Below are positions 11,471 to 53,323 of a stretch of 64,000 nucleotides of DNA, one piece after another (position 1 is the stretch's first letter; each line of letters opens with the position of its first letter). The translations under genes were made by a program, and so were the position numbers. Location: NCBI GenBank assembly GCA_029204225.1, contig CM055104.1, positions 42,653,502 to 42,717,501 on the forward strand, read 5' to 3'. Origin of the DNA: Diphasiastrum complanatum (taxonomy: Eukaryota > Streptophyta > Lycopodiopsida > Lycopodiales > Lycopodiaceae). Under the pieces are notes generated by a model. The model searched no databases. It saw only the letters and a list, made by a program, of their open reading frames with translations, and was not told where the DNA came from.

Positions 11471-11885
11471 TTATGTTGGTGAGGCTATTGATCGTGTTAA
11501 TATTGTTGAGAATAGGTTGTTAAGTGAGGCCTTAAATGACATGTGATCACATGTTTCCTTGTTTGAAAGAAAATTGAGTGCAAGTTTTTTGAGTGGCTTT
11601 GCTAAAAATTGTTTTGTACATACTTCACTAGAAGCCTTATCTAGGGATGAGGTGAGACCCATAAAATTTGTTTTTATAGGATGTAATGGCAATATTAAGG
11701 GGGAAATAAGTGTGGTTGAAGGTAATATCTTTGTAAGTCCAAGTATTATTGATTTTCAAGATGCTTATGATGTTGAATCATTAGCATATTCATTATCTAA
11801 TGTAAGGAGTGTACCTAGGGAGAGTATTTTAGTTATCATGAGCTCAAAATTTCTAGAATTTGATCACCCTAAGGGAAATCTTTAA
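11471..11885 (+). pseudogene. Orphan retroelement-associated ORF, copy 1
   Basis: The open frame 11559-11885 begins in a segment shared with the plus-strand copy at 15910-16390. Common protein landmarks are FLSGFAKN, HTSLEALSRDEVRPIKFVFI, GCNGNIKGEIS and YDVESL. I do not recognise the family. Relative to the second copy it lacks about 26 codons between GEIS and GNIFVSPS. The retained reading frame in both copies argues that it was coding when amplified. It could be an accessory ORF of an LTR element, because copy 2 lies directly upstream of a purine tract and LTR-like sequence. No start context could be judged; an upstream portion is frameshifted. Confidence 0.5.
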
Positions 11886-12840: not shown

Positions 12841-15909
<3,069 letters not shown>

Positions 15910-16486
15910 GTGTTTGTACATTTGTCTTCTGTTGGCGAGGCTATCGATTGTGCTAAGATTTTTGAGAGTAGGGGTTGTCAAGTGAGGCCTTAGATGACAA
16001 TCGATCACATGTCTCATTTTTTTAAAGGAAATCAGTGTAGGTTTTTTGAGTGGCTTTGCTAAAAATCGTTTTGTACACACTTCACTAGAAGCTTTATCTA
16101 GAGATGAGGTGAGACCTATAAAATTTGTTTTTATAGGATGTAATGGCAATATTAAGGGGGAAATAAGTGAGGTTCAAGAAAATAAGAGTGTTCATGCTTG
16201 TAGAGAAAAAGACGAGGGGCTTACTCATGAGTGGAGAGAAAAAGAGAGGAGTGAATATGAAAGGAAAGGTAATATCTTTGTAAGTCCAAGTATTGACGTT
16301 GATATTCAAGATACTTATGATGTTGAATCATTAGAAGATTCATTATCTAATGTAAGGAGTGCACCTAGGGAGAGTATTTTTACTAATCTTATTTTGGTGG
16401 TTCACTTGCAAGGTGTTGGAAGGATCTTGGTGTGTGTCAAGAAATGCAAAATCTCATCATGGATCTTGGTGATAATCAAGAATTAA
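15910..16486 (+). CDS. Orphan retroelement-associated ORF, copy 2
   Basis: The frame open from 16046 to 16486 carries the same landmarks as the copy at 11.5 kb (FLSGFAKN, HTSLEALSRDEVRPIKFVFI, GNIKGEIS). It has an extra charged stretch rich in Glu, Lys and Arg between about residues 48 and 73. Homology starts earlier, near 15910, but that part is frameshifted. It is followed at once by two further plus-strand open frames and then a polypurine tract, so it may be the first part of one larger disrupted ORF in the 3' half of an LTR element. The family is not recognised; no known pol, gag or env motif was seen. Confidence 0.45.
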
Positions 16487-20576: not shown

Positions 20577-22284
<1,708 letters not shown>

Positions 22285-23907: not shown

Positions 23908-24600
23908 TCAGATTCTTAGCAAAAACACACTGAGTTCTGGACCTCCTGTTCCGTCAGGGTTCATCATGTAAAAGGCTTCTGAATCTTTCGATCCGATAAC
24001 CCTCTCAAAACGAGCTCTCATGTACATCAGCTCTCCTTGCGATCCTTCCACATGCATGGGGAGGACTCCTGCCCCCATGGATATGGCCTGCAAGATACTC
24101 AGAATCTGTAAATCAGTTTCGGAACAAGTTTTTCTGAGGGCGTAGCCAGTCTTTCTTCCATTACAATACATTGTCCAGAAAGGTTCCTGAATAAGCTTTC
24201 CAACGTTTGTTGATTTCTCACATTCCAGAGCGATTCTCACTAAACCAGACGACATCTCTTTAACGAGAGAGCTTGTTGGAGTTGCCAACTCGAGTAACAA
24301 AACAGGAGGCATTTTTGGATCGTCCTGAACAGCGAAGTGGACATGACCTTTTCGATTTCCAAAAAGTGTACCAATGACACGGCTCCCTTGAGATCGTGTA
24401 GCGGAGGGCCTCGAGGGAAGGGTTAGCAGCTTACAAGAGATCATGGAAAAAGGAAGGAAACTGAAAATGGCTCTGAAGATTGTGTTTAATTTTCCTTGTT
24501 TCTGAGGTTTGTCGAACGGCATAAGAGCAAGCTTTCTTCCTACTAAGGGTCTTTCAGGAGTTTGGGGCTCATCCTTACTCATAAACATCCGAGCACCCAT
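23908..24600 (-). CDS. MIZU-KUSSEI1-like (DUF617) protein
   Basis: A single open frame of 230 codons. Residues about 75-230 form the plant-specific DUF617/MIZ1 domain: GTLFGNRKGHVHFAVQ near 77-92, LLLELATPTSSLVKEM near 101-116, RIALECE near 122-128, EPFWTMYCNGRKTGYA near 139-154, and the C-terminal stretch with GELMYMRARFERV near 189-201 and DSEAFYMMNPDG near 206-217. Arabidopsis MIZ1 is needed for root hydrotropism and associates with the ER; this paralogue's role is unknown. I chose ATG at 24598-24600 because it is the first in-frame ATG after a stop at 24661-24663. The N-terminus is short and variable, as is usual in the family. No introns or disabling changes are visible, making this the only apparently intact gene in the window. 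It is flanked by a TATA box and a poly(A) signal. Confidence 0.93.
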   Translation of the reverse strand: MGARMFMSKDEPQTPERPLVGRKLALMPFDKPQKQGKLNTIFRAIFSFLPFSMISCKLLTLPSRPSATRSQGSRVIGTLFGNRKGHVHFAVQDDPKMPPVLLLELATPTSSLVKEMSSGLVRIALECEKSTNVGKLIQEPFWTMYCNGRKTGYALRKTCSETDLQILSILQAISMGAGVLPMHVEGSQGELMYMRARFERVIGSKDSEAFYMMNPDGTGGPELSVFLLRI

Positions 24601-24865
24601 TTGCACTAGATTTGCAGTACTGTACACGCGGTGCTGATTCGTCGTCCGACCAGCTACATGTCAAATTCTTTCAACATATGTACCTTAAAATATGAGAACA
24701 TCGAATACTGAAGACTAATAATCAGCATGTGAAAATGCTAACGCATCTTGGACGTCGTTCAGACGTTAGCGGCCAACGAAAAGAACATTTTTGTTTTTCC
24801 ACATTCTGAAACTTCCGGTAGAAGTTGGAGGTCAGCAGACATGCGCTCAACGTCGTCAAGAGGCG

Positions 24866-28996: not shown

Positions 28997-29077
<81 letters not shown>
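28997..29077. repeat. (GA)n microsatellite
   Basis: Nearly uninterrupted GA dinucleotide with one GACAGA interruption near 29041. Confidence 0.96.
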
Positions 29078-46992: not shown

Positions 46993-47669
46993 CTAGTTTG
47001 GATCTAACATAGATCTACTAATCACTCCAAGAGAGGGTCTCAACTTTATGAACGCTGCTCTTTGAAAAGGTTTAATGAGTACATCAACAACACATTCACT
47101 ACTTGATACATCTTCCAAAGAGATCTCTTTTGCTTGAATCTTTTCTCTCACAACGTGATGACAAATCTTTATTTGTTTGGATCTTGCATGAAAGAATTGG
47201 ATTTGATGCAAGATGTTGAGCTGAAGTGTTGTCATTATGGATGATTGGTACATCCTTTGGATCCATAATCTTTAGCTCTACCAATAGTCTCTTGATCCAA
47301 AGCACTTCCTTGGTTGTTATAGTAAGTGCCGTGTACTCGGCCTTGGTTGAAGAGAGTGAGTTTGTTTCTTGCTTCTTTGATAGCCAAGAAACTTCTCCAA
47401 CACCTATGAAAGTTGCATATGCACTTGTTGATCTTATATCTCTCTTGTCACCTGCAAAATCTGAATCACTAAAGGCATACAAGTCAATTACATCTCCTCC
47501 ATATACCAAAGTCTAGTGTACCGAAGATGTACCTCAAGGTCCTTCTAGCTTTCTTCCAATGAATGTTCAATGGCTCTTGCATGTATTGACTCAATCTACA
47601 TACACTATCAAGCCTAGTAATAGTAATCCACATTAAGGAGCCTATAAGCTGTCTATATTGAAGAAACAA
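46993..47669 (-). pseudogene. Ty1/copia RT end and RNase H relic
   Basis: From 47669 the frame gives YRQLIGSLMWITITRLD, LSQYMQEP and ARRTLRYIFGTLDFGI, the end of copia RT. From 47509 RNase H follows: YAFSDSDFAGDKRDIRSTSA (catalytic Asp), WLSKKQETNSLSSTKAEY (Thr-Lys replaces the usual Ser-Glu), VLWIKRLLVELK, HNDNTSA. A frameshift near 47180 leads to FHARSKQIKICHHVVRE and DVLIKPFQRAAFIKLRPSLG, the Pol C-terminus. The rest of the element upstream is missing: sequence above 47669 is unrelated. A purine tract and LTR lie downstream as expected. Confidence 0.87.
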
Positions 47670-47756
47670 AATGTTACTATTTACAAAGCTTTGCTAGCTT
47701 TTAGCCCTCTGCTTAACGAATATGTTTACGAACACGAAAGTCAAGAGACACAAAGC

Positions 47757-47850
47757 ACGAAAGTTTTGCGAACACCTGACGGGAAGACACGAAGTACGAA
47801 AGTTTCGCAAACACCTGACGGGAAGACACAAACACGAAAGATTCGCAAAT
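47757..47850 (+). repeat. 39-bp tandem repeat, 2.4 copies
   Basis: ACGAAAGTTTTGCGAACACC then TGACGGGAAGACAC begins at 47757 and again at 47796, with a third partial unit (ACGAAAGATTCGCAAA) at 47834. It lies about 390 bases upstream of the histone-like frame, and GAACACGAAAG variants precede it. Confidence 0.88.
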
Positions 47851-48238
47851 GAGAATCTTTTGCGGTCCAGCACGAGAAAGTCAGACGATGGAAACATAAC
47901 CAACGACGCAACACGAAAAACATCGCGAAACCTTTTCTACCCTCATGCTCCAAAGGGTACCAGTAAGATCAAGCAAGTACCCAGAAGTACAAATATTTGA
48001 TCTGATGGCATGATGTCAGTAGATACACTCTAGGTTGTAGCTAATCCGCCACTCTTATAATTTTTTGATTAGTTGTAGATCTAGTTACTCTAATCTAAAA
48101 GGTTAAAAGAGTGACTATATACTTACTGGATAATATTTGATAGATACAGAGAGATGTATGAAGTAGGTTTTTTTTTTGTTTTCATCCACTTTTGTTTTGT
48201 TCAAACTTCTTTTTGTTAATTTTCTTCTTCTGAGAATA
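47851..48238. other. Upstream region of histone H3-like frame
   Basis: No gene is recognised. A TATATA-like run lies near 48115-48121, about 120 bases before the candidate ATG, and a long T-rich tract precedes the ATG. This could be promoter and leader sequence; no E2F-type or octamer histone-promoter motif was noticed. Confidence 0.35.
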
Positions 48239-48919
48239 ATGGCCAGGACCAAATCCACTGCCCATGCCGTCACCACTGTACAACCATCCCATTCCCGTGT
48301 TCCCCCTGGTACTGGCCGTAGGCATGGCAGGAAGTAGGTCTGGGTGAGGGAGATTAGAAAACTCCAGAGATCAACTGAATTGTTGATCCCTAGAGCTCCT
48401 TTCGGCCGATCTATTCGGAATGTCACTCTGTCACTTGGGCTAAATGTTCGTTTTGCCGTGACAGCCATGCAAGCCTTACAAGGTGCTGCAGAAGATTTTC
48501 TGTCCCAGTTTTTTGAGGATACTTGTCTTTTGGCAGTGCATGGTAAGCGTGTCACCATCATGCCAAATGATTTCGTCATTCTCAAAAGGCTTCGAGACAG
48601 ATATTCTGGTCTGCATGTTGATAATGTCAGCACCTCCAGAGACCTGTCTCTGGATAGAACCAACGTGCCTACTACCTCTAGGAGGAAGAGAAAGCAGTTT
48701 GTCCCCAAGAAGGCTGGATCTCGAAGGCCAGCTGCTTCCCTTCCTCCTAGACGTATCCCGACCAAGAGACCCCGTGTCTTCTTGGGCTCTGAGTGGGATG
48801 TTGGAGAATCTGACTCAGATCGAGAATCTTCACCTCTTCTTCCTCTTGTTAATCGTCTAGCTCCTCAGCAGGTTTCATCACCAAAAGTGTTGATTACCCA
48901 AGAGGAGCTAGACAAATAA
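48239..48919 (+). pseudogene. Divergent histone H3-like protein with C-terminal extension
   Basis: From ATG 48239 the frame starts MARTKSTAHAV, matching the invariant MARTK of H3, with Lys4 kept and Lys9 replaced by Ala. After a short Pro/Arg/Gly tail an in-frame TAG (48335-48337) interrupts. The histone fold follows at 48347-48604: REIRKLQRSTELLI, ALQGAAEDFLSQFFEDT, HGKRVTIMPNDF, KRLRDRY. The loop-1 spacing equals canonical H3, not the lengthened centromeric form. H3 normally ends here, but the frame continues about 104 codons with two basic clusters (SRRKRKQFVPKK; PPRRIPTKRPRVF, likely nuclear signals) and an acidic Ser stretch (WDVGESDSDRESS). Stop TAA at 48917. The histone-fold call is firm; the nonsense codon, if real, makes it a pseudogene unless translation starts elsewhere. 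The H3-specific tail is unprecedented to my knowledge. Confidence 0.8.
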
Positions 48920-49367
48920 TAGAGAAATCTGTAAATATTGTTGCCACTTCTGTTTCTGCTCTTGTACATAATCTTTTTGTGAGAATTCCATATGATTCAG
49001 CCCAGGTTTTTTTTTTTTGATTATGACCATTATAATCAATACGAGGCCTACCTAGCTAACAAAATTGATCTTCTCGGCAACCTTTGATTTTTTTCTTCCA
49101 AATACCCGTAGAAGCTTTAGATTAGGTCCCAAATTTTGTGCCGAGCTAAAAGATAAGACCTCAGAAATTTCAGATGCAACAGTAGAGGCCGAAGTTTCTT
49201 TTTTGCTAAACAGTATTAGTTTCGATTCCCATGGTACAATGTTTGTAGTTAGTCCATTTTTCATGGGAGCGGTAAAGGCGAAAGAAGCCAATTTTGAGAA
49301 GGCTGTCTATTTTATCGAGTGCAGTCCTATGGCAAAATTCTATTTGATTCCATATGAAAATAATTAA
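48920..49367 (+). pseudogene. Frameshifted continuation of the H3-like reading frame
   Basis: Directly past the stop at 48917 another frame reads IEKSVNIVATSVSALVHNL and FVRIPYDSAQ. A T-run (slippage site) near 49007-49018 switches to FDYDHYNQYEAYLANKIDLL, and another shift leads to an open frame 49084-49364 with FDFFLPNTRRSFRLGPKFCA and FEKAVYFIECSPMAKFYLIP, ending TAA. Each segment is protein-like and they abut, so they are probably one former coding region broken by three indels, making the H3-like protein over 350 residues long. No domain is recognised in this part. Alternatively it is a separate gene just downstream. Confidence 0.45.
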
Positions 49368-49486
49368 GGATTGCTCTTTAGTTTTTTGTTACTTTAATCT
49401 GGATTGTTGCATGTTTCATTGCTTTAATAAGAACAAATTTTTTCATAAATATGAATTTATCGATATTTGTATTTTGGTTCTTGCAG

Positions 49487-50330
49487 TCGGCATTGGAGCC
49501 TGAACATTCTTTTTGTAAAGATAAATAAGGAGGGAGTATCAAATTTTCTATGTGTAAAATTAAACTCAGCCGCAAATACACATAGAGAATTTGATTCTCT
49601 ACTTCATGATGTCGTTCGGGAAATACCTTCAATTGGAGAGATAACCATTAAATCTCTCAAGGTATATTCAATCTATCTATAATATGCATGTATTCTTTTT
49701 TTTACTTCAAATGTATCGTCATAGCATAAATAAAATTTCTATCATTATATTACTAATTTTCGTTCTATATATGCAGTGTGTACAACAACAAGACGTAGTT
49801 GTGCATGGTTCGTCCTATACAATACGAAGCTATTTTTTGAATGGTATAATTTACAAATGGATGTAGATATTGAAAAGGTAATATTCTATTCAATTGTAGT
49901 TCATTTCATTCTGATTCATATTTTAATACTACCATTGTTTGTAATTTGCCGATTCTCGTGTTTTGTGATGACAGTTCACTCTTGAGCTGTATACTCCTGA
50001 TGATGTATATAGATTTCGGCAAGAGTTGATCAGAACCTATGCCCAGTACAATGTAAGCGTTGCACCTACAATCGAGGGCCCTCAAAAGGAAGCTGTTCCT
50101 GCCTTAACAACCTTTTAGGTTGTTTAGGATGCAGATCTTATTTTATATATGATCAAAAAGAAATAAAAGTCCTTCTTTATACAGAGGAAGACAATTTTGT
50201 AGCAGATATTCCTCTTGCCTTAAAAGGCATTGAGGCCCTTCCCAAAAAAGAGGAGGGTGAGATTATAGGAGCTATTGCCTTACCAGTTCCTAATACTGAT
50301 ATAGAAAATATAGAAAAATTGATTGAATAG
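49487..50330 (+). pseudogene. Intron-containing orphan gene, plus strand
   Basis: Three exon-like blocks have canonical borders. 49487-49661 (preceded by TTCTTGCAG, followed by GTATAT) codes RHWSLNILFVKINKEGVSNF and IPSIGEITIKSLK. 49777-49877 (TATATGCAG / GTAATA) codes RRSCAWFVLYNTKLFFEW and DVDIEK. 49975 onward (GATGACAG) codes FTLELYTPDDVYRFRQELIR, joined in phase with exon 2, and stops at 50118. A shifted frame then runs to TAG 50330 (EIKVLLYTEEDNFVADIPLA). Exons 1 and 2 are out of phase by one base, so at least two indels have damaged it. Introns of 115 and 97 bases are plant-sized. The product is not recognised. It may continue the H3-like frame upstream. Confidence 0.5.
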
Positions 50331-50402
50331 AGATCTATTTGTAAATATTAAAAAAAAAGATACAATCATTTTACTTGTAAACAACCCATTTATGGGTTTT
50401 TT

Positions 50403-50408
50403 TTTATT
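50403..50408 (-). terminator. Candidate poly(A) signal, minus-strand gene
   Basis: AATAAA on the minus strand, about 60 bases past the stop at 50469. It also places the 3' end of the minus-strand gene about 70 bases from the last plus-strand stop. Confidence 0.4.
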
Positions 50409-50468
50409 GATATCACAATAGATTCTTACAATCAGCTTGTGTCCATAGTCTACTGGAATGCAATTTTT

Positions 50469-50878
50469 CTATAATGATAAAAAGACATGATGATTGGCAT
50501 GTATTTGGTGATAGTGAATCTCAATGTTCTTCCATAAGTTGGATTGTTTCGCCAAAATTTCTGCATTTGATCTCAAGCTCATGTCTTTTACGTACCTGCA
50601 TAAAACTAATACAAAGTTAGTTAGAATTAGTACAAAGTTTGTATTAGAAAGGTTTGATTGAAACTATTCATAAAAGATTGAGTGTTTATAGTTACTTACA
50701 AGTTTACCATTGAAAATGGATCTGAATTCTGAAAGTACATCATCTTGTAGGAGCAATAGTTCCGCCAGATATAGTTTAGACTCCAATTTTCTTCCACCTC
50801 AACACATGTCAAAACGACATCAGTGTATATAATTTGAATATTTTTCGTTTTGAATGTCCACTTACTTCCAAGTCTTGA
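50469..50878 (-). pseudogene. Spliced orphan frame, minus strand (3' part)
   Basis: An open frame from 50878 down to 50700 codes KWTFKTKNIQIIYTDVVLTC and NYIWRNYCSYKMMYFQ, ending at a donor ACTT|GTAAGT. A 104-base intron (50596-50699) ends TTTATGCAG. The next exon, 50595-50469, joins in phase and codes YVKDMSLRSNAEILAKQSNL then WKNIEIHYHQIHANHH before TAG. Phase agreement across the intron is good evidence of a real former exon pair. Upstream, 50880-51060 holds another broken coding-like frame with CLPCASVIKLKNKC. I recognise no family. It may be the 3' end of the gene that starts at 51884. Confidence 0.5.
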
Positions 50879-51225
50879 TCAAGTGGCACCCATTTACCTT
50901 TATTTTTTTTTCATCTTTGATAATGGAATCATAAGCTCAACATTTGTTTTTCAATTTGATAACGGAAGCACATGGAAGACATTTTAATTCTGCATTCTAC
51001 TTTTCCATCTGATCTTTTGTCCTAGCCTTCATCCATAAGTTCAGATAATAAACTATCTGATAAATTTTTGCATACAAACGTCGTTGGGGTTTTGTGTACA
51101 TTGACACTTGAAAAGAAATCCACAAATATATTCAAGGAAATAAACCAACTCAATCTGACTGTTTTTGATCCCGTGCTCATTTTTAGTGAATTTTTTACAT
51201 CATTATATATCTTGCAACGAAATGA

Positions 51226-51884
51226 TTATGAAACTGTAGCATCTGGTGCAATCCATTCATCACTTTCAAAACTAGGTAATGGGATTGGTACTATTTGTCC
51301 AAAATTTTCTTTTGTATCAGGAATGTACATTGATTCATAAAAAAAGATCCCACTATCATCTAGATCTTTTGCAGTTCTACCTCGATATTGCAGCTGTCTA
51401 ATATCAGTGTGAATAACATCTAACACACCTGCTAAAGATCCACTCGGTTCCCATTCATTTATGTTGGATGGATATAAATCTGCAAGAGAAAAATGATCAG
51501 ATTGGCAAGTTTACTATTAGATATTTATGAATGACAAAAATCAAAGTATCAGAAATATCAATACTCACAGTTGTTTTTTTTGTGGTCTTGACGGTTGAAT
51601 CCTTGCACATTTATCTCAGAATGCATATATACATGTTGGACTAGAATTTCAGAAATAGATTTTCCTCCTGATGATGTTCTGAAATCCAAAATTCTGGCCT
51701 TCCAATAAGATCAAAATGATAGTTTTGACCTTTTCCTTTTTTGAAATGCTCCTCTTGATGATGGATGCATCAAAACCCAAGAGTTTTTTGAATATTTTCT
51801 TGGCACCCATAATCCATTATCATCTGTCTCGTTGAATAGAAGCACAGAGTCGATTGAGGAGCACGGCTTCCTTGATGGCGCCAT
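51226..51884 (-). pseudogene. Two-exon orphan gene, minus strand
   Basis: ATG 51882-51884 opens MAPSRKPCSSIDSVLLFNET and runs to a donor AACAACT|GTGAGT (last exon base 51569). A single in-frame TGA at 51711-51713 breaks it, readable as a former CGA. The intron (51480-51568, 89 bases) ends TTTTCTCTTGCAG. Exon 2 (51479-51226) joins in phase (codon TAT across the junction) and codes YPSNINEWEPSGSLAGVLDV, RQLQYRGRTAKDLDDSG and FGQIVPIPLPSFESDEW before TAA. The total is 189 residues. WKARILDFRTSSGG followed by ILVQHVYMHSE faintly recalls a BAH-type domain, but this is not established. One nonsense change and intact splice sites suggest a recent loss. Confidence 0.55.
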
Positions 51885-51971
51885 TCGTAATTTGCATGCA
51901 AAATTCTGAAACAATGAACTATGAATCTGAAAATTTGCATAGACAAAAAGCCATGAATCTCAGAAAAAGTG

Positions 51972-52007
51972 TTGGCGAAAATTTGAAACACTAATCTATT
52001 TGGCGCC
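51972..52007 (-). promoter_or_regulatory. Two E2F-like sites upstream of orphan gene
   Basis: TTGGCGAAAA (reverse complement TTTTCGCCAA) at 51972-51981 and TTTGGCGCC at 51999-52007 match the E2F consensus TTTSSCGC-type core. They lie 88 to 123 bases upstream of the ATG at 51884. If functional they would link the gene to S phase, as for replication-dependent chromatin genes. Confidence 0.4.
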
Positions 52008-52481
52008 ACAAATTAACTCTGGTTAACCCTGTTAACCATGGTTTGACAATGCATATACATTAATGGTACATCGATTTTCTCATCTCAACCATCTGTCATA
52101 TTTATTTTCAATATTTTTGGGTCTCTTCGGACAGTGATGAGCTAGAAGGGCAGGCCTCATCAACCAATAGCATTTTCACATGCTGCCCGACGAAACAACA
52201 ATATATTTAAGAAGTTTTTATTTTATTTATATTTGAAAAATTCTACGTTACATAGAATCTTGAAGCTAAGGTTTCAATTGGTCCACATGGCAACGAAAAT
52301 AAGAAAAAAAATAAAAAAACATCTTTTTGATAGGCCCTCGTAGGGCTCTAAGTTTCTCTAATGTCAGCTGACAGTGTCCAGCGATCGCATCTGAACTCCA
52401 TCCAAATTAGAAACTATTCGCGATTGTTTCGCTTTCACGACTGTGTTTCGCTTTCACAATTTCTTTTCTTCATCACATCAT
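52008..52481. other. No gene recognised
   Basis: Contains GGTTAACCCTGTTAACC near 52021 and a GCCCTCGTAGGGC hairpin near 52334. No coding or mobile-element domain was seen. Confidence 0.4.
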
Positions 52482-53323
52482 ATATAAAGTGTTGTCCATG
52501 AAGGACCTTTCATCATCTTTATTAGGCACTTTTACATCTTGCTCCATGAGAGTCTCTACATACTTGCAATCTTGCATCTTAGACTTAAATAGCAAACTTT
52601 GAGCATAGTTTTTTTAACAAATGAAGATAAAATCAGGTCCTCTAATGACTTCTATGCCCAAAATATAATGAAGATCACCTAGATCTACCATCTTGAACTC
52701 TAATGAAAGATCTATATTGACTTTCTTGATTTCAACAATACTATCACCATTAAAGATGATGTCATCAACATAGATTAGCAAGAGTAAAATACCATGGTCA
52801 TCAAACTTAAGATATAAGCTAGGATCATATTCACTTTGAGAGAAACCAAGTGAAATAAGATAATCATGTAGTCCTAAATTCCAAGACCTAGAGGTTTGCT
52901 TCAAGCCATAGATGCTCCTTTGTAGATGACAAACCTTGTCATCCAACCCGAGCTTGATGAATCATTGGGGATGCTCCATGAAGATGTATTCTTTCAAGAA
53001 TCCACTAATAAATCCATTTGACACATCCACTTGACAAATCATCCATCCAAAATGAGAGGCAAGAGCAGGAATTAACCTTATTGTGACCATCTTGGCCACA
53101 ATGGTCTCCACAAAATCTATACCCTCCACTTAGGCATATCCCTTGGTAAGTAGCCTTGATTTGTGTTTGATTATGTTTCCATTTGAATTGAGTTTGGACA
53201 TCCTATCACATTCTTAGGTCTATCAACAAGGATCCAAGCGCCATTATCCATCAAAGCATTATACTCATCTAGCATAGCTTGGTGCCATTATTCTGAACTC
53301 AAAGTGTCTTTTACTTTTGAAGG
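52482..53323 (-). pseudogene. Ty1/copia reverse transcriptase relic (element B)
   Basis: Reading down: WHQAMLDEYNALMDNGAWIL and RPKNVIGC begin RT. Frameshifted pieces SNGNIIKHKSRLLTKGYA, VEGIDFVETIVAKMVTIRL and GWMICQVDVSNGFISGFLKE follow. From 52946 the frame is open: VCHLQRSIYGLKQTSRSWN, then LLLIYVDDIIFNGD with the catalytic Tyr-Val-Asp-Asp intact, and FKMVDLGDLHYILGIEV. Past a stop at about 52612 it continues SKMQDCKYVETLMEQDV to DNTLYM near 52485, where it is cut off; RNase H and the 3' LTR are absent. RT copies element RNA into DNA. Despite an intact active site, at least four disruptions make it dead. Confidence 0.88.

Follow-up and report, generated by a model that had tools for sequence, protein, structure and literature searches.

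A reading frame for a divergent histone H3, cut by an in-frame stop codon and drawn out into a long C-terminal extension, raises the question of what kind of gene it represents and how it came to lie where it does in the genome of Diphasiastrum complanatum. An earlier note on the window (the whole 64,000-nucleotide stretch analysed here) had proposed either a captured, neofunctionalised H3 in a mobile element or virus-derived segment, or a decayed lineage-specific nuclear gene. Judged from sequence comparison, the locus is very probably what is left of one copy, truncated at its 5′ end and decayed, of a high-copy plant mobile element whose protein combines a divergent H3, a linker with basic and acidic stretches and a cysteine-protease domain of C48/Ulp1-like type. 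We favour a mobile element because the frame is repeated across the genome, its copies share a fixed 3′ terminus with differing flanks, a transposase-like gene is linked to it, and its fold is under purifying selection; in this part the proposal of a captured H3 is supported, and the virus-derived segment found no support in narrow viral scans.

The features on which this reading is built are collected in Table 1. The gene at 48239-48919 has the make-up described before, namely a MARTK tail with Lys4 present and Lys9 absent, a stop at 48335, an H3 fold and an in-frame extension of about 100 codons, with the frame after the TAG (48338-48919) running open for 193 aa. By profile, the fold is a member of the histone family with H3 nearest, as the note had proposed to check: it matches Pfam Histone with 78.5 bits (E = 6.6e-22), and in a PDB sequence search H3 and its variants account for all 60 listed of 179 matches (best E = 3e-20). 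When the tail is joined to the fold across the stop, the Histone score rises to 86.8 bits (profile positions 6-118), so tail and fold were once a single gene. AlphaFold2 places helices at residues 2-12, 19-32, 37-69 and 78-89 (mean pLDDT 62.5, with the extension at low confidence), and by title the 50 listed of 116 Foldseek matches are nucleosome or other histone-complex entries, the global fit being poor (rmsd ~7). Identity to canonical H3 is 46-51%, and loop 1 of the fold aligns with canonical H3 without a gap, in line with the H3-length loop noticed earlier. In what we take to be H3 numbering, the H3-H3 interface residues H113, R116 and D123 and the DNA contacts R69, R72 and R83 are kept in the window copy. 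Among 5.8 billion proteins, the window frame found 11 matches, all H3-like and all via the fold; the extension alone yielded 24 candidates from the same collection (proteins of up to ~338 aa), none with E ≤ 10. There was no match in Rfam and nothing relevant in NCBIfam. Chance would seldom produce such a frame: of 20,000 first-order Markov shuffles, 87 keep the extension open and 2 the full 193 codons.

Table 1. Positions in the window of the H3 gene, the element fragment that carries it and the surrounding Copia sequences.
Feature	Position	Strand	Basis or remark
Outer Copia, RNase H side of the split	47099..47658	-	by eye; no Pfam match for 47099-47512
Candidate target-site duplication TATAT of the LTR	47654..47658 (left); 52481-52485 (right)		
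Left part of putative Copia LTR (TG...CA) around the fragment	47659..48170	+	36/40 scored matches start at its first base
Element fragment common to dispersed copies, 5′ part absent	48171..52363	+	~91% nucleotide identity
H3-like N-terminal tail (MARTK...), K4 kept, K9 gone	48239..48334	+	ATG at 48239
In-frame TAG, nearly private to the window copy	48335..48337	+	comparison with family copies
Histone H3 fold	48338..48610	+	Pfam, PDB, AlphaFold2, Foldseek
C-terminal extension/linker	48611..48916	+	in-frame conservation across family copies; stop at 48917
Linker remnant and beginning of C48-like domain, shifted out of the H3 reading frame	49080..49364	+	by eye
C48-like exon with HW motif	49487..49661	+	splice sites by eye
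C48-like exon with QQ..C region	49777..49877	+	frame-shifted in the window, in one frame in L073
Last recognisable C48-like exon	49975..50118	+	
What remains of a second element gene, in opposite orientation	50640..51885	-	by eye, limits approximate
3′ terminus (...CTAATG) after a short hairpin	52345..52363	+	16/16 fetched copies
Right part of the same LTR	52364..52480	+	only 52364-52449 aligned directly
Outer Copia, reverse transcriptase side of the split	52481..52961	-	Pfam RVT_2, E = 2.1e-24

The frame is far from unique. Searching the window's own genome (1.74 Gb) for copies, a check proposed in the earlier note, gave at least 149 further matches to the 193-residue frame at 80-91% identity (150 scored of 7,520 candidates, window included), some of the 150 rows being assembly duplicates with identical scores recurring on small contigs. 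All 150 cover at least 188 of the 193 residues and, besides the window copy, have E ≤ 1.2e-94. Since the whole frame recurs genome-wide, the extension is evidently part of a repeated protein and not a chance downstream ORF; an unrelated ORF, the outcome that the note had named as contrary to its idea, is thus excluded by family-wide in-frame conservation. Stops interrupt the aligned part in 119 of the 150 scored copies, and 31, window included, have none. The TAG at 48335 is a case of its own. Of 23 other copies that could be compared at this site (L014 and L036 could not, and L051 and L010 are one locus), 22 have a sense codon there; L031, too, carries a stop. The window copy therefore shows private decay, the family keeping open frames elsewhere, so the suspicion of a decayed gene holds for this copy and fails for the gene as a whole. 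An intron hiding the stop was thought unlikely by eye; family copies have a sense codon at the site. Loss of Lys9 is shared, as position 9 is not Lys in nine of the ten tails readable among 27 rows, window included; L035 has Lys9.

The fold is under purifying selection as a mobile-element gene. Across 25 copies of the window's family, family 1 (30 fetched loci without L009, which is the window, and without the duplicates L011, L012, L019, L021 and L033, the window then being added), the fold has a mean dN/dS of 0.42 and the extension one of 0.84; for the 11 stop-free copies the values are 0.38 and 1.00. Constraint on the family-1 extension is accordingly weak or absent, and the extension is not clearly constrained.

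Where the repeated unit ends is well defined on one side. The window copy and all 16 fetched copies terminate in GCTCTAAGTTTC[TC]CTAATG, beyond which the 16 fetched copies run into 15 different 3′ flanks (L064 and L065 share one), and in a dedicated search with a 164-base query the alignments of all 40 copies scored (out of 1,545 candidates) extend to its base 163 or 164. On the other side, family copies continue for at least 1.3 kb beyond the upstream limit of the window copy; neither a native 5′ end nor terminal repeats nor a target-site duplication of the H3 element was found. The terminus was considered as that of a Helitron and rejected, CTAATG being constant through its G in 16 of 16 copies as against CTRR with a target constant only in its first T, and the frames given to Pfam held no Helitron domain. 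An inverted repeat of ~553 bp at the left of L073 was likewise dropped as a native terminal repeat, L074 continuing differently there. At positions 120-672, L073 has the element's 3′ end in inverted orientation, with the junction inside the transposase-like gene, and L073 is probably a recombinant copy.

The H3 gene lies ~2.7 kb from this second high-copy gene, represented by a 361-aa frame (L042:7775-8857, minus strand) with 120 matches of at least 75% identity scored from 13,559 genome candidates, 58 of them without a stop. In 24 H3/linked-gene pairs, chosen by eye for closeness among the listed matches with unpaired matches left uncounted, the two genes have opposite orientation in 22 and are spaced 2.6-3.0 kb apart in 19; in L046, C8 and L073, too, the H3 gene has a relative of the linked gene on its upstream side. 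We infer that the gene is transposase-like from its acidic and zinc-like motifs, its copy number and its linkage. It has no match in PDB, NCBIfam or, for the partial frames submitted, Pfam, where neither a mudrA-type MULE transposase nor a hAT transposase/dimerisation domain appeared, and it possibly marks an unclassified, recently active group of transposons. A BAH domain considered in the second element gene of the window (50640..51885, E = 0.06) was gone on another stitching and was rejected.

In the window, the element fragment would sit inside a Copia LTR that itself lies within another Copia, as we infer from the two LTR parts and from outer Copia reading frames that break off at DNTLY and restart at YRQLIG across the inner LTR. 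The left LTR part has relatives in the genome (40 scored of 5,767 candidates, the window itself included). At the fragment site, the window LTR is without 258 bases present in L054 and 448 present in L056, so the insertion was not a clean one. The alternative parse of 47659-52480 as one element with CpG-rich ends was set aside, both ends belonging to one LTR.

Family 1 is one of several. A genome-wide Pfam histone search (150 scored of 6,325 first-look candidates) lists 13 genes at 163-165 bits, which we take as separate canonical H3 genes, and divergent H3 frames at 109.5 bits or less. A second family (L046, L047) has a single open frame of 347 aa and 327 aa, respectively, that runs from the H3 fold up to the start of a C48-like domain, comparison of the two copies giving a dN/dS of 0.13 over tail and fold together and of 0.43 over the remainder. 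In a third (L039-L045, L048 and L050), the H3 fold ends the frame, C48 was not seen, and a long proline-rich N-terminus precedes the fold in the translated copies L040, L041 and L042; L049 is a further variant of the H3-like frame. Between families, synonymous change is saturated and the fold differs at 23-37% of nonsynonymous sites. Across all three diverged families, the H3 gene is found near homologous transposase-like genes, and the order of these and two further frames, compared by eye, suggests that gene order is conserved. Long stretches are 89-99% identical between third-family copies, and this family is probably rather young.

The protease part was traced in steps of unequal weight. 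Ulp1-like protease was first recognised by eye in the window exons at 49080-50118, where the C48 catalytic motifs are broken. For the window's family, Pfam Peptidase_C48 gave no match in a first search and then E = 0.037 and E = 0.21, all below cut-off; in the latter stitching SATase_N ranked above Peptidase_C48, and a shorter piece matched SATase_N alone (E = 0.02). Exons of other family-1 copies reached E = 0.058, again below cut-off. Second-family exons stitched from L046 and L047 match Peptidase_C48 with E = 1e-8 and 35.7 bits (cut-off 20.7), this query being a mosaic of two copies that each lack part of the catalytic motif: stops occupy two motif sites in L046, and the catalytic Cys is absent from L047. 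Within family 1, L073 carries HW, NS and QQND..SC in one open frame, read by eye against the catalytic H, D/N, Q and C motifs of C48. PDB searches with two stitched C48 pieces returned no protease and chance matches only; the stitched H3-C48 protein found 18 matches, all with histone domains, from a scored set of the 7,998 candidates sharing most words, which is no fair test of the C48 part. The C48 identity and its fusion to the H3 fold are supported, most firmly in the second, sister family.

If the locus is a mobile element, its H3 could still be cargo. That the element copies an acquired H3 gene without using it, as in transduplication, is the alternative that survives best, and we regard it as rather improbable. 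H3-like genes (H3L) do occur in fungal hAT transposons of Pyrenophora tritici-repentis and other Dothideomycetes (PMC3538342, PMC6710886), which resemble the present element as multi-copy DNA transposons with a histone H3-like gene beside the transposase; they differ in having a hAT transposase, the partial frames of the linked gene here being without a Pfam match, and no C48 fusion is described in the available parts of those reports. The stops in 119 of the 150 scored copies and the nearly unconstrained family-1 extension would also suit a passenger. A gene carried idly is, however, hard to square with constraint on the fold within families (dN/dS 0.13-0.42), with three diverged families that retain the H3 gene near homologous transposase-like genes, or with an H3 frame that continues into a C48-like domain in two of the three.

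Histones occur in some large DNA viruses, and several neighbouring genes are without a convincing Pfam match, so endogenous remains of such a virus or of a virus-like element with a histone have to be weighed. We consider this origin very improbable: in IMG/VR, scans with one to six peptide patterns each found no relative of the H3 frame, the H3 alignment or the transposase-like protein, and 16 copies that share one 3′ terminus and run into 15 different flanks fit transposition.

The window gene also has a likeness to plant CENH3, presumably in its H3 fold, MARTK start, LIP-type helix 1 and divergent tail, and we take the MARTK tail and LIPRAPF motif to recall CENH3. In a 20-sequence tree the window fold falls in a divergent, weakly supported area (local support 0.19-0.83), which would leave room for a host H3/CENH3 variant family with the window copy as its pseudogene. 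That reading is the least probable of all, since loop 1 has H3 length, two residues shorter than in human CENP-A and Arabidopsis CENH3 (a longer loop 1 is common in CENH3, not universal), and since the gene has a long C-terminal extension, candidate copies scattered in their thousands over the genome, a shared 3′ terminus and a linked transposase-like gene, in a genome where the 13 canonical-type H3 genes stand separately.

Transposons counter silencing with DNA-binding anti-silencing proteins. For the mobile element favoured here, we put forward, tentatively and at somewhat less than an even chance, that the H3-C48 protein acts at the element's own chromatin. The element-encoded H3 fold would take H4 as its partner or bind H3 chaperones, the resulting nucleosomes could not be marked at K9, and the protease domain would strip SUMO from nearby silencing factors; the element would thereby escape heterochromatin, as VANC does for VANDAL elements by another route. 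A broader picture, which we hold to be less likely still, is of an unclassified plant DNA transposon superfamily with its own K9-less H3 variant, joined to a SUMO protease in some families and carried long enough to split into families, that coats its own copies in chromatin evading the host's K9-methylation loop. If true, a transposon supplying its own selected histone together with a SUMO-protease-like domain would strike directly at the nucleosome. The H3-protease gene of the element suggests that mobile DNA can arrive with a chromatin protein of its own.

In function, the closest parallel is the VANC/KIU system of VANDAL MULEs, in which VANC is anti-silencing: a protein encoded by the element takes DNA methylation off members of its own family, and Ulp1 is present in some copies (PMC13317346, PMC5735166). 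These non-TIR MULEs (Kaonashi/KIU and VANDAL-VANC) share with the present element that they are plant DNA transposons with a Ulp1 domain and with tandem repeats in noncoding parts; they differ in that no histone domain is mentioned in the accessible portions of the two papers, and in that the partial frames compared here gave no MULE transposase match. ULP1-like proteases have been captured repeatedly by plant DNA transposons, as in grapevine MULE and CACTA families (PMC2528002), and the word 'histone' is absent from the main text of that report. A limited search of the open-licence literature, covering titles and the starts of abstracts, found neither a plant element encoding H3 nor an element-encoded H3-C48 fusion. 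The many open-frame copies in the genome make the idea testable by chromatin and RNA profiling.

Other observations concern the surroundings. Elsewhere in the genome, in L002 and L003 (C11), a 3′ end of the H3 element stands at a distance of ~1.3 kb from canonical H3 genes; L002 and L003 are perhaps duplicates of one another, and the proximity could be chance. In the window, a DUF617 open frame stands amid retroelements at 23908-24660 on the minus strand (Pfam E = 3.4e-71) and is presumably of the plant-specific MIZU-KUSSEI1 type (MIZ1); with this gene and many LTR elements, the window is read as plant DNA. Two open frames on the plus strand, 11547-11885 and 15998-16486, have repeats of 92-94% identity in common, ~4.5 kb apart, and long (GA)n, (TG)n and (AC)n microsatellites occupy 1966-2058, 15216-15317, 20648-20866 and 28998-29076.
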